Shown here: positions 12,182 through 17,143 of the stretch, in pieces
Numbering within the stretch: position 1 is the first letter of the stretch
How the letters are laid out: each line of letters opens with the position of its first letter
Origin: Nitrospirota bacterium
GTDB taxonomy: Bacteria > Nitrospirota > Nitrospiria > Nitrospirales > UBA8639
Direction of reading: 5' to 3'
Length of the DNA stretch: 62,731 nucleotides
Assembly: GCA_027623995.1 (NCBI GenBank)
Contig: JAQBUF010000013.1
Span: 1-62,731, forward strand
The notes under the pieces: generated by a model
What the model was told of the DNA's origin: nothing
Databases searched by the model: none
What the model saw: only the letters and a program-made list of their open reading frames with translations
Made by a program: the position numbers and the translations under genes

Positions 12182-12342
12182 AACTTAAACAACTGGCATT
12201 CATAGATTTTGGAATTTTTGTCCTGGCGGTCATCCTAGTCTGCCAACTGACTTCCCTACCAAAAACCGTATTTGCGCAAGACAAAGAAAGGCGAATTCAA
12301 CCCATAAGTGCACCACTGGTTACTAATGGCTCTCGTGTTTGA
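12178..12342 (+). pseudogene. LolA-like periplasmic protein, 5' part cut by IS30 insertion
   Basis: The first 41 codons (12178-12300) encode a signal peptide ending near KTVFAQDKERRIQ. The frame then enters the insertion sequence and stops at 12340-12342. Joining codon 41 to 13381 (removing the element and one copy of the 8-bp GAATTCAA) restores one open frame of 253 codons with the part at 13381-14019. The insertion therefore broke an intact gene recently. The remaining product would be a short exported peptide with no function. Confidence 0.88.
12293..12300. repeat. Target-site duplication, left copy (GAATTCAA)
   Basis: Identical to 13373-13380 on the other side of the IS30 element. The bases immediately outside differ, so the duplication is 8 bp. 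Confidence 0.85.
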
Positions 12343-13295
12343 ATCCATTGCATGAACACTTCCCAGGGTGTTTGAAACCCCAAGCATTTGCGTGGACGAT
12401 GATTCATCGCGTCGACCGCCGCGTCGACTTCCTCTCGGACCACGGTATCAAGCCGCCTCCCTTTTGGGAAGTATTGGCGCAGCAAGCCATTTGAGTTCTC
12501 ATTGAGGCCGCGTTCCCAGCTGTGATAGGGCCGCGCAAAGTACCCTTGGCAGGCCAGCGCTTCAGCAATCTCTTGATGTCCACTGAATTCTCGCCCATTG
12601 TCATATGTGATCGTCGCCACCCAGTCTTTCCAGGGTTCGAGAAGCGTGATGATCGCCTCCGTGACCAACTCGGCGGTTTTGCGGAGGATCGGTAGCGCCA
12701 AGAACAGGCGCGTTCGTCGTTCGGCGAGGGTCACGATCGCCCCCTTGTGCGCCTTCCCCATGATCAAGTCCGCTTCCCAATCCCCCACGCGAGCCCGAGT
12801 CGCCACCACAGCGGGACGCTCCTCAATCCCCACCCGACCGGGGATGGTTCCTCGAGTATCCGTCGCTCCATACCGTTTGCGATAGGGCTTGGCTTGATGG
12901 CGGAGATGCCGATAGAGCTGGCCCCCTTGCTGCTGGTCCTTGAGCACGACCCGATAGATGGTTTCGGGACTCAGGGACAGGGCCTGCTCTTGTTCGAGCC
13001 GCCCACAAATTTGTTCCGGGCTCCACCGAGCTTGGAGCTTCTTCTGGATATACTGTACGACCGGCTCCGTCACTTTCACGGCTTTCGGTTTTGTCTGCTG
13101 CCGCTGGTCGGCGAAGCCCTGAGCTTGGTGATGCCGATACCCCCGTTGCCCTGTGTTCCGCTTGAGTTCACGACTGAGGGTCGTGTGGGAGCGTTCCATC
13201 ACCGTCGCGATGGCTCGATAAGTCTGCCCTTGCTTCCTCATCATCTCCAATCCATACCGTTCTTGCTGCGTGAGCTGTGAATACTTCTGCCCCAT
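12297..13295 (-). CDS. IS30-family transposase
   Basis: The 332-residue product has an N-terminal helix-turn-helix (QERYGLEMMRKQGQTYRAIA, then SRELKRNTG) and a DDE catalytic domain with WEADLIMG, TYDNGREF and the downstream Glu in LNENSNGLLRQYFPKG, the IS30 signature. The ATG follows GGAGGAGGT. The reading frame runs out of the left end of the element. Its TGA (12297-12299) lies in the duplicated target sequence, so the stop codon comes from the host gene, not the element. The gene looks intact and may be active. Confidence 0.93.
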   Translation of the reverse strand: MGQKYSQLTQQERYGLEMMRKQGQTYRAIATVMERSHTTLSRELKRNTGQRGYRHHQAQGFADQRQQTKPKAVKVTEPVVQYIQKKLQARWSPEQICGRLEQEQALSLSPETIYRVVLKDQQQGGQLYRHLRHQAKPYRKRYGATDTRGTIPGRVGIEERPAVVATRARVGDWEADLIMGKAHKGAIVTLAERRTRLFLALPILRKTAELVTEAIITLLEPWKDWVATITYDNGREFSGHQEIAEALACQGYFARPYHSWERGLNENSNGLLRQYFPKGRRLDTVVREEVDAAVDAMNHRPRKCLGFQTPWEVFMQWIQTREPLVTSGALMG

Positions 13296-14066: not shown

Positions 14067-15560
14067 TTATCTCTGGCTATACCAGCGGAAGCCGCCGGAT
14101 TCTTGGTAGGCGGGGCGTTTGAAGCCGCCGGGTTTTTCGAGGATGAGGGCTTTGAAATCCCAGAGGCCGAACCATGCTGGATCGAGGATGTTGTGGTAGT
14201 GCAATCCGGTGAGTTTTGGGAGGGCTTCACCGAGGGATTCTTTAAGTTCCGCTTCGGTATAAGCTCGCACGGCGAATTTCTTTCCTTCGGCTTCTTGTAA
14301 TCGCCGAAGGGCATAAACCGCCCCAGTGCAAAGCACTTGGGTGTCGCGTTTGATGGAGAGGAGTTGCGGAAGGGCGCAGTATTGTTCGTTAAACCCCAGC
14401 CACTTGGCCACATGCCGCATGTGCGTGTATTGCACTTCGTATTCCGTATGTCCGGGAAGTCGCACCGGGTCAGGCCAGCCTGAGTCAATGCCAAACTCAA
14501 TGAGTAGTGCTCGCCCGCCTGGTCGTAACACCCGCCACAATTCAATGAGAAATTGTATGGCCCCGTAATTGAAGATAGCTTCATCGGGATAGGGTTTATC
14601 CAAATTCAATCGAAGCTTCTGAATCAAATCCAAGCTCCGTTGATGCTCCTCGTTGGCCCCTTTGCCGGACTCCAGTTCTTCTTTGCTGAAGTGGGTCGGG
14701 GTCATGTCCGCTAAATTTTCATTGTCGATGACGAGGTCCACGCTCGCATCGGCCAGTGGCAAAAATTCTGCATTCGCATTCAATGCACGTGCGTCCCATC
14801 CAGCTTTGGTGGCCAGGTCGAGCTGAGAATGGAGGAAGGGGCGAGTCAGATCCAGAAAAATATATTCGACATTTCGTCGATCTGCGGGTGAGAGTTCCTT
14901 GGCCATCTCCTGTGAGAGATAGCCTAGGCCTGCTCCAACTTCGACAATCCGATTGGGTTTGGGGTTCCACCAGCCCATTTGCTTTAAGGTCTTGGCAAGG
15001 AGCTGTCCATAGGACAACCCGTTCAGCGCTTCACAGGGCTCGCGGAGTAAATGGGAGACGGTGGTTTCGACGATTTCAAAATGCCCGTGGTGGCTTTGAA
15101 TGCCTTTATGGTGAAAATCGGTGAGGTGCTCATCGGTTTCGACGGCCACATTTTTATGCCATTGTTCTCGGACTTTCTGAAGCAAGAGATCCCACTTCGC
15201 ATTCACGCTATGCCCGCTCGGCGCTTCATCACCGTAATAGCAGAGGGAATAGCGTGGCGACGCCCAGCGCTCCAAATACGACCGGCCGGTTTCTTGATTC
15301 GGGCCACAGACCCATTTACCGAATTGATCTAAGAGCGATTGAATGGATGATCGACCATCCATGGCTCCAAGCAAAGAGGCTCCCATACGATTGAGTTTTA
15401 CGAGGGGAAGGTCTTCATCGAGGGGAGCGACCCACCATTCTTCAGTGCCGTGCTGATAGACGATGAGGTCGGGCATACGCCATGCCCGTTGTCGAAGGAC
15501 ATCGCCTTCGAGGGCTTGTAGTTGACTAGATGAGGGGGGAACTTGTGAAGAATCCGACAT
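14067..15560 (-). CDS. PqqD-like domain fused to SAM-dependent methyltransferase
   Basis: A 497-residue protein. Residues about 28-85 carry a PqqD-like (RiPP-recognition-type) pattern: PDLIVYQHG, then LVKLNRMGASLLGAMDGRSS and LLDQF. Residues about 195-400 form a class I methyltransferase with NRIVEVGAGLGYLSQEMA (SAM loop), YIFLDLTRPF, DLVIDNENLADMTP and LWRVLRPGGRALLIEFG. A C-terminal part of about 100 residues (AVRAYTEAELKESL, HNILDPAWFGLWDFKALILEKPGGF) is not recognised. The ATG (15560) directly abuts the stop of the diiron-oxidase gene (15561-15563), so translation is coupled and the two probably act together. The substrate is unknown. Confidence 0.72.
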   Translation of the reverse strand: MSDSSQVPPSSSQLQALEGDVLRQRAWRMPDLIVYQHGTEEWWVAPLDEDLPLVKLNRMGASLLGAMDGRSSIQSLLDQFGKWVCGPNQETGRSYLERWASPRYSLCYYGDEAPSGHSVNAKWDLLLQKVREQWHKNVAVETDEHLTDFHHKGIQSHHGHFEIVETTVSHLLREPCEALNGLSYGQLLAKTLKQMGWWNPKPNRIVEVGAGLGYLSQEMAKELSPADRRNVEYIFLDLTRPFLHSQLDLATKAGWDARALNANAEFLPLADASVDLVIDNENLADMTPTHFSKEELESGKGANEEHQRSLDLIQKLRLNLDKPYPDEAIFNYGAIQFLIELWRVLRPGGRALLIEFGIDSGWPDPVRLPGHTEYEVQYTHMRHVAKWLGFNEQYCALPQLLSIKRDTQVLCTGAVYALRRLQEAEGKKFAVRAYTEAELKESLGEALPKLTGLHYHNILDPAWFGLWDFKALILEKPGGFKRPAYQESGGFRWYSQR

Positions 15561-16289
15561 TCAATTGAAGGGAGAAGCATCGGAAGGATTGGCATCAAAG
15601 ACAGCACGGTACATGCCATCCCAAAATTCAAGCCACGCATCCGCAACTTCACGAGCGCCGATAGCCACTTCGTATAAATCTTCGTCCGATTTGGCGGTTT
15701 TGCGAACCGCTTCGATCAGCCACTCACCATGCGCTTCTTCTTCGGTCTCGTGAAGCTGAAAAAAGGCAAGATCTCCACTATTAAAGTGGCCATATTGTTG
15801 GAGACCGGGGACAAAGTATTGGAACTCGGACACGGCCGTGGTTTCGACTGCCAGTTCTGCACCCAAGGCGGTTAAGTGACTTGGACCTGAAAACAGTCGG
15901 CGTAGCGTATCCAAATACTGTGTGACTTCGGGAATTGGTTCGGTATCTTCTAGATCTAGCGGGCGTAATCCAATCGAGTTGGCAAATCGTTCGAGCTGTC
16001 GAATATGTACATGTTCGTGAGAGCCGCTGCCTAATTCTGAATAGAGCGTTTTGGCCAACTCAGTTCGCATTTCCACTTGTGCAATCGGGGTGTGATACAG
16101 CAGCCCTTCAAGCACTTTCACAAATTGGAAGCAAAAGTAGTGGTATTGGCGAATAAAGAGTCGAAGTTGGCGAGGACTCAGTTGCCGGGCTTTAAACATC
16201 CGAAAGAATTCGTTGCTATTCACCGGATGGGTTTGTATTTCATCAATAAGCGAATCTATATCGATCGGTAATTCTTGAACAGGACCCAT
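15561..16289 (-). CDS. Heme-oxygenase-like diiron protein (PqqC/TenA/CADD type)
   Basis: A 242-residue all-helical protein of the iron-containing redox enzyme family. Visible features are the helix FIRQYHYFCFQFVKVL, the metal-ligand-like LGSGSHEHVHIRQLERF and ELAVETTAVSEFQYFVPGL, and LHETEEEAHGEWL with Glu/His ligands. Known members of this fold do unusual O2 chemistry: PqqC in PQQ synthesis, CADD-type p-aminobenzoate synthesis, UndA, SznF. The ATG at 16289 follows AGGGAG. An upstream TTG is unlikely. It is the first gene of a two-gene unit with the PqqD-methyltransferase fusion. The metal content and reaction are inferred. Confidence 0.72.
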   Translation of the reverse strand: MGPVQELPIDIDSLIDEIQTHPVNSNEFFRMFKARQLSPRQLRLFIRQYHYFCFQFVKVLEGLLYHTPIAQVEMRTELAKTLYSELGSGSHEHVHIRQLERFANSIGLRPLDLEDTEPIPEVTQYLDTLRRLFSGPSHLTALGAELAVETTAVSEFQYFVPGLQQYGHFNSGDLAFFQLHETEEEAHGEWLIEAVRKTAKSDEDLYEVAIGAREVADAWLEFWDGMYRAVFDANPSDASPFN

Positions 16290-16429: not shown

Positions 16430-17143
16430 CTAGGGTTTTTGCGCAAGAATGCTGGCATAGGCCGATTGGTCATCATCTTGTGTTTGATAGCGTAATTCCG
16501 TGAAATTTGTGAAATGATTGAGGAGTTCATTGGGCGTTAAGAGGAATTGCTTAGGGAACTGATTGCGATATTTCAAATGATCCAAGGTATACGTCTCTAC
16601 AATCACTATCCCGCCTGGTTTGAGCGCTTGAATAATTTGCGGAAACAGATTTTGTTGTAGGTAGTAGGTGCAAATAATGACATCATATGTCTCGACAGGT
16701 AATTGGTAGGTTTCAAGATCGACCACTTTGGTTTCAATGGTGAATCCATGGACTTTGGCGAGGGCTTGCGCTTTCTGGAGCCCGTTCTCTGAAATATCAA
16801 TGCCGGTGATCTCAAACCCTTTGGGGGCAAGAAGCACCCCATTGCGTCCTTCACCCATGGCAATGTCCAAGGTTTTGCCCTTAGGCAAGAGGTGCAGGTG
16901 TTCCTGGAGAAACGCGATCGGGGCTTTTCCAAAAATATATTCCTCGGTGCCATATTTATGATCCCAACGCTCTTTGTCCTTCGGGGTGGCTTCTCCTATC
17001 GAGGGGATGAAGAGGGCGAATGCTATCGTAAGGCAAAGAAAAGCGATCGTTTGATGAAAGAAAACCCGTCGACTGTGCCACATTGAAAGAGCCATTGAGG
17101 TACACCGTTCGGCCATGATGGAGGCTGAAATATCATAGCCCAT
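16430..17143 (-). CDS. SAM-dependent methyltransferase with N-terminal signal/anchor
   Basis: The 237-residue product has a TehB/SAM-methyltransferase core: KGKTLDIAMGEGRNGVLLA (SAM loop), ITGIDISENGLQKA, DVIICTYYLQQNLFPQI and LKPGGIVIVETY. Upstream is a 55-residue N-terminus with a strongly hydrophobic stretch (TIAFLCLTIAFALFIPSIG) ending in EATPK, like a signal peptide or membrane anchor. That is odd for an enzyme that needs cytosolic SAM. The ATG at 17143 has GGAG upstream. A start at an internal Met could remove part of the leader but not the hydrophobic segment. Confidence 0.75.
   Translation of the reverse strand: MGYDISASIMAERCTSMALSMWHSRRVFFHQTIAFLCLTIAFALFIPSIGEATPKDKERWDHKYGTEEYIFGKAPIAFLQEHLHLLPKGKTLDIAMGEGRNGVLLAPKGFEITGIDISENGLQKAQALAKVHGFTIETKVVDLETYQLPVETYDVIICTYYLQQNLFPQIIQALKPGGIVIVETYTLDHLKYRNQFPKQFLLTPNELLNHFTNFTELRYQTQDDDQSAYASILAQKP

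Follow-up and report, generated by a model that had tools for sequence, protein, structure and literature searches.

A near-universal methyltransferase of Nitrospirales and its heme-oxygenase-like diiron neighbour

Why should a heme-oxygenase-like diiron protein (HDO) be encoded end to end with a methyltransferase (MT) whose front part resembles PqqD, and do the two act on the same substrate? The question is raised by a stretch of 62,731 nucleotides from a Nitrospirota genome, the whole of which is called the window here. Nitrospirales account for a large share of the nitrite that bacteria oxidise in soils, the sea and waste water. The gene for NxrB, the nitrite oxidoreductase beta subunit, was found via its primer site in the genome of the window (G000, contig C75, 18225-19508); the source organism is therefore probably a nitrite oxidiser. 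A search of the literature on heme oxygenase-like proteins, PqqD, methyltransferases and diiron enzymes, in which few subscription journals were covered, found no published pair of this kind, and for Nitrospira together with PqqD only a viral metagenome study was found. The features of the locus are as follows.

12297-13295, reverse strand: gene identified by eye as an IS30-like transposase, with GppA/Ppx on one side and the MT region on the other
14067-15560, reverse strand: MT gene, 497 amino acids, PqqD-like domain and MidA-like class I SAM methyltransferase; ATG at 15560
14127-15146, reverse strand: MidA/NDUFAF7-like methyltransferase domain of MT, about residues 139-478
15213-15506, reverse strand: PqqD/RRE-like, winged-helix-like N-terminal part of MT, about residues 19-116
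15561-16289, reverse strand: HDO gene; ATG at 16289, TGA ending at 15561
16430-17143, reverse strand: TehB-like methyltransferase gene, upstream of HDO; the protein carries an apparent signal peptide

The TGA of HDO and the ATG of MT adjoin with 0 bp between them, exactly as the original prediction had read these two open reading frames. The arrangement is more than chance, since MT homologues throughout the order share 52-93% identity and 25 of 80 named loci (the best 80 of 177 relatives) have HDO immediately upstream of MT, abutting or nearly so. The intervening gaps are mostly 0, 13-16, 26 or 45 bases, with 122 in one locus, and some of the genes overlap depending on the start codon.

Does a third gene belong to the pair? 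The original prediction had proposed a survey of such genes, and none is constant beside the pair in the neighbourhoods of homologous loci. A TehB-like secreted methyltransferase precedes either the pair or a lone MT in several genera of family f1 and is an inconstant neighbour; relatives of the window's TehB-like gene occupy the same place in several genera, with HDO present or absent. An export signal on a SAM enzyme is odd. In the genus Nitrospira, a secreted cupredoxin gene lies directly upstream of the lone MT (L077 6531-7061, with equivalents in L073, L076 and L078).

Families and folds of the two proteins

To which family does the HDO belong? Structure prediction and comparison had been proposed as a check on both proteins. 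The HDO scores 84.4 bits against PF14518 (cut-off 28.9), and its predicted structure (pLDDT 91) has the N-oxygenase HrmI as its closest solved structure (Z 25.6 over 225 residues, rmsd 2.5, 16% identity), followed by CADD and BesC at Z 24.6 each, which at one Z unit is practically a tie. Sequence profiles rank BesC and PabS above HrmI. Membership of the PF14518 superfamily, with its heme-oxygenase-like fold, is well supported. All 21 of 21 homologues keep the six dimetal ligands of the superfamily (E, H, E, HxxxE/DxxH), namely E85, H95, E149, H180, E184 and H187; loss of any of them in close homologues was looked for and none was seen, which supports the original description as far as a dimetal HDO is concerned.

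Glu61, the sole conserved acid of its helix, is also invariant in the close HDOs, and its position is Val, Ala, Ile or Ser in all other HDOs compared, namely both further groups found in the order and the plasmid-borne relatives. The corresponding residue of auxiliary helix 2 supplies a carboxylate to Fe1 in SznF (E189) and RohS (E93); in substrate-triggered HDOs it is hydrophobic (PMC11611611). Because Glu61 is invariant and this helix supplies a carboxylate ligand in SznF and RohS, Glu61 is a candidate seventh ligand, and the site is predicted to be of their seven-ligand, non-substrate-triggered type (three histidines and four carboxylates, 3H/4C). E85, H95, H180, E184 and H187 are in register with E215, H225, H311, D315 and H318, the metal ligands listed for SznF (PMC11705231), by a profile alignment offset deduced from the alignment end points (6m9r 206-320 against profile 74-187, profile position being residue minus 2). 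The Glu and His of core helix 1 are 10 residues apart; the spacing is shorter in BesC and CADD/NePabS. To our knowledge, few HDOs with a seven-ligand site have been characterised so far.

Two other activities within the same fold can be weighed at this point. A metal-free enzyme of the PqqC or TenA kind would have this common fold, and PF03070 is matched with 32 bits. Such an identity is scarcely credible, as PF14518 is far the better model at 84 bits and the dimetal ligands are invariant. The original view that this is not PQQ synthesis by PqqC chemistry is supported. The other candidate, a self-sacrificing p-aminobenzoate synthase of the CADD/NE1434 kind, draws on PabS as a top sequence match and on a score of 54.6 bits against the CADD family model TIGR04305, far under the 200-bit cut-off. 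The synthases use a sacrificial Tyr and a Lys (PMC11965152); in the window protein the Tyr position is Phe29 and that of the Lys donor is aromatic, and a methyltransferase partner would be senseless for p-aminobenzoate, all of which makes this activity very improbable.

What kind of enzyme is MT? The original prediction had divided it into a PqqD-like domain, a SAM methyltransferase and an unrecognised C-terminal region. The last of these is resolved differently by the predicted structure (pLDDT 82): residues 139-478 fold most like MidA/COG1565 structures (Z 19.8, 19.6, 19.2, 18.6 and 18.2; 5zu0 at the top with Z 19.8 over 271 residues and rmsd 4.0, 4g67 with Z 19.2), and since the match covers this whole range, the C-terminus is part of the methyltransferase fold. 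The lead of MidA is only about 2-3 Z units, generic methyltransferases scoring about 17. By sequence, Methyltransf_25/11 is matched over residues 205-287, and PF02636 at 12.5 bits falls below its cut-off of 23.3 and is matched in 5 of 40 MT homologues (best E 0.012). The hhalign comparison with MidA (probability 58) is weak but in register, placing NELVDAFPV of MidA close to DNENLADMTP of MT; the latter motif and the SAM motif EVGAGLGY are invariant in MT homologues. Two ordinary MidA-family genes are found elsewhere in the window's genome (G000, contigs C55 and C32), which makes MT a further, divergent family. For the MidA orthologue NDUFAF7, the methylation target is Arg85 in a subunit of complex I (PMC3829151). 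Distinct from MT, a second family of about 480-530 amino acids with a partial PF02636 match occurs in most of 40 genomes of the order that were searched (L233 3885-5435 in G000 contig C47; L234-L240, L243 and L244).

The PqqD-like domain stands as a profile similarity and falls short of the curated model. Alignment to PqqD proteins by hhalign gives P 4.6e-5 and probability 68 over core residues 32-82, with the LN..G / dG..s register aligned, and the predicted structure has the strand-strand-strand-helix order of PqqD. PF05402 is matched in 7 of 40 MT homologues (best E 0.0086), while the window protein reaches 12.9 bits and the best homologue 19.1 bits against a cut-off of 23.4; nowhere in the window's genome is there a PF05402 match at E 0.01 or at the cut-off. 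The likeness of the MT N-terminus to PqqD is thus real but weak.

Distribution and inheritance

How widespread are the two genes? MT belongs to the core genes of the order Nitrospirales: nearly all members have it, mostly in single copy. A search across the phylum detected it in 138 of 396 genomes, all 138 within the order; when the order was sampled more densely, 184 of 197 genomes had it, as did 146 of 151 good ones, mostly as one full-length copy. Most of the 13 genomes that gave no match are incomplete or are members of family f4. As to a link of MT with nitrite oxidation, neither MT nor NxrB was found in 4 genomes of f4, though this is a single clade and in many fragmented genomes the search overlooked NxrB; in G375, G396 and G285, NxrB is present and MT was not found. 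A scan of 84,980 species genomes gave 177 relatives, the best 80 of which are from Nitrospirales MAGs and isolates, including Nitrospira moscoviensis, apart from one labelled Opitutia and one labelled Nitrospinota, presumably misbinned or misnamed. Those two labels aside, MT was not found outside Nitrospirales among the 396 phylum genomes and these best 80 of 177 relatives. The gene is syntenic, adjoining GppA/Ppx and RecG in most lineages, and it is retained in genomes that range from 1.7 to 5 Mb. It was found on no plasmid, the plasmids searched giving six distant HDOs only, and viral carriage was looked for and seen for neither gene.

The MT gene also appears to attract insertions. Its 3' end is duplicated downstream in several genomes, as copies of 113-447 bp with 86-94% DNA identity at or near the stop codon (L103 4898-5344; L113 4675-4906; L144 11070-11295 and 16318-16433; L159 2699-2811; L160 10413-10525), with further fragments in G070, G222, G235, G281, G383 and G389. 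The copies flank small toxin-antitoxin-like cassettes (BrnT at 85.7 bits, an HTH antitoxin-like protein, a RelB-like protein and a DUF6036 nucleotidyltransferase), and no integrase was seen among their listed open reading frames. The pattern resembles that of an insertion hotspot with the 3' end of MT as its target; the window itself has no such duplication.

The close HDO (54-85% identity) is far more restricted. It occurs in only 33 of the 197 genomes of the order, is missing from the genus Nitrospira proper, and gave no match at E 1e-30 in genomes from the rest of the phylum. Its presence requires 7 changes on the MT tree and extends to both deep branches, and its distances correlate with those of MT (Mantel r 0.94, p 0.001, 21 pairs), although vertical inheritance alone would give much of that correlation. 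Since the HDO is on both deep MT branches and has diverged in step with MT, the simplest reading is an ancestral pair from which HDO was lost repeatedly and MT retained. The expectation that the pair would be conserved in relatives is therefore correct where both genes are present, as they are kept vertically there, and does not extend to most of the order.

Has another HDO taken the place of the lost one? A paralogue with 28-30% identity was considered as a substitute and rejected: its own distribution is patchy, and several genomes have it together with the close HDO. Its group (L163-L169, L172, L176 and L182) has, by eye, homogentisate dioxygenase, 4-hydroxyphenylpyruvate dioxygenase-like and fumarylacetoacetase genes as neighbours, so that a role in tyrosine catabolism is possible. 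In L175 (2337-4420), the stop codon of a third-group HDO (35%) overlaps the start of a 449-amino-acid protein without a Pfam match. The latter has an LLDLGAGD motif resembling a SAM-binding loop, and this is perhaps another HDO-methyltransferase pair.

What might the pair do?

The surprising part of the locus is MT, near-universal in one order and restricted to it, with its PqqD-like domain; the pair itself is real, ordered and vertically inherited, the types of the two enzymes are well supported, and what follows on their function is a plausible proposal. Tentatively, and aware that it may well be wrong, we propose that MT N-methylates and the 3H/4C HDO N-oxygenates a shared substrate, likely a protein or peptide. 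MT would bind the substrate, most probably a stretch of a protein or peptide that the PqqD-like domain holds, and would methylate it, most likely at a nitrogen such as an arginine guanidine, as its fold suggests. Since the genes abut, HDO and MT are probably translated from one message. The HDO would form a SznF/RohS-type dimetal site of 3 His and 4 carboxylates, with Glu61 as the presumed seventh ligand, and may then, with O2, N-oxygenate either the same substrate or the MT product, as SznF follows SznE on arginine. This order of events is suggested by the same two enzyme types as in SznE/SznF, by the protein-methyltransferase-like fold and by the PqqD-like domain. The MT step would be useful by itself, which would be why most lineages kept MT alone. 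A narrower version, in which a PqqD-guided MidA-like enzyme methylates arginine or another nitrogen of a Nitrospira protein that the 3H/4C diiron enzyme then N-oxygenates, is a long shot.

Is there a precursor peptide? The original prediction had envisaged a bound peptide or small precursor that is oxidised and methylated, with a conserved short peptide perhaps encoded near the pair. None emerged from 3,582 short open reading frames in 157 flanking regions within 1.5 kb of the pair: the search returned only shadow frames of known genes and one 107-amino-acid coiled-coil-like gene downstream in some loci of family f2. On the scale of these 1.5 kb flanks, a RiPP cassette with a nearby precursor is rejected. 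A peptide bound by the PqqD-like domain may still be the substrate.

The lack of a precursor in the flanks fits a small-molecule pathway, in which both enzymes act on a free metabolite derived from an amino acid, the HDO being BesC-like and the PqqD-like domain merely structural or a dimerisation element. BesC and PabS do come first by sequence profile, and the nearest plasmid-borne HDO relatives (Burkholderia glumae, Pantoea) lie in small clusters with an aminotransferase, an FAD oxidoreductase, TauD and an ATP-grasp protein, as for amino-acid-derived natural products. On the other hand, no further biosynthetic genes lie alongside the Nitrospirales pair, MT best resembles a protein methyltransferase in fold, and Glu61 separates the window HDO from BesC and the plasmid relatives; such a pathway is conceivable, if somewhat unlikely. 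The strongest objection to the paired reading is that most lineages keep MT without HDO, and it leads to the view that the two are independent neighbours, MT a housekeeping protein methyltransferase and HDO a separate enzyme sharing only its message. The counts of 184 against 33 genomes speak for this, as do G125 and G287, where both genes are present but apart, and the TehB-like gene, another neighbour that comes and goes. Yet zero or near-zero gaps persist from genus to genus and are found on either deep branch of the MT tree, the two proteins diverge in step (with the reservation about vertical inheritance given above), and only one genome, G423, which is 85% complete, has the close HDO and no MT. 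Independence is an unlikely account, though one to be taken seriously.

Why does this matter? The conservation of MT across nearly all Nitrospirales marks an undescribed piece of core biochemistry that is important to these bacteria. With its HDO partner, a further clade is predicted to have a seven-ligand site, and it becomes possible to test concretely if protein-bound nitrogen is a substrate of HDOs. If the paired N-methylation and N-oxygenation were true, an HDO would perform post-translational nitrogen oxidation within a core process of nitrite oxidisers.

Comparison with known systems

Among known systems, SznF/StzF and SznE of streptozotocin synthesis, which N-hydroxylate N-methylarginine, likewise combine a methyltransferase with an HDO: SznF accepts methylarginine produced by SznE, an arginine-guanidino methyltransferase (PMC11705231). 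The window HDO resembles SznF in its metal-ligand register, including the 10-residue Glu-His spacing, and in the candidate seventh Glu. Unlike SznF, which includes a cupin domain and whose substrate is free methylarginine, the window HDO has no cupin; the Nitrospirales methyltransferase, for its part, differs from SznE by its PqqD-like domain and MidA-like fold. The lysine N-oxygenase HrmI/BelK is the best structural match, yet at low identity and tied with CADD and BesC. BesC and CADD/NePabS, nearest by sequence profile, have the same fold and core ligands and differ by the shorter core-helix spacing and the absence of Glu61, CADD also by its sacrificial residues.

MT is closest in fold to the protein-arginine methyltransferase MidA/NDUFAF7 (COG1565, PF02636), whose NE..DA.P-like motif is similar to DNENLADMTP. 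It differs by its score under the PF02636 cut-off and by the extra PqqD-like domain, and true MidA genes are separate in the same genome. With PqqD and the RiPP recognition element (PF05402), the MT N-terminus shares profile register and secondary-structure order; it differs from them in scoring under the cut-off, in having no peptide gene nearby, and in being fused to a methyltransferase.
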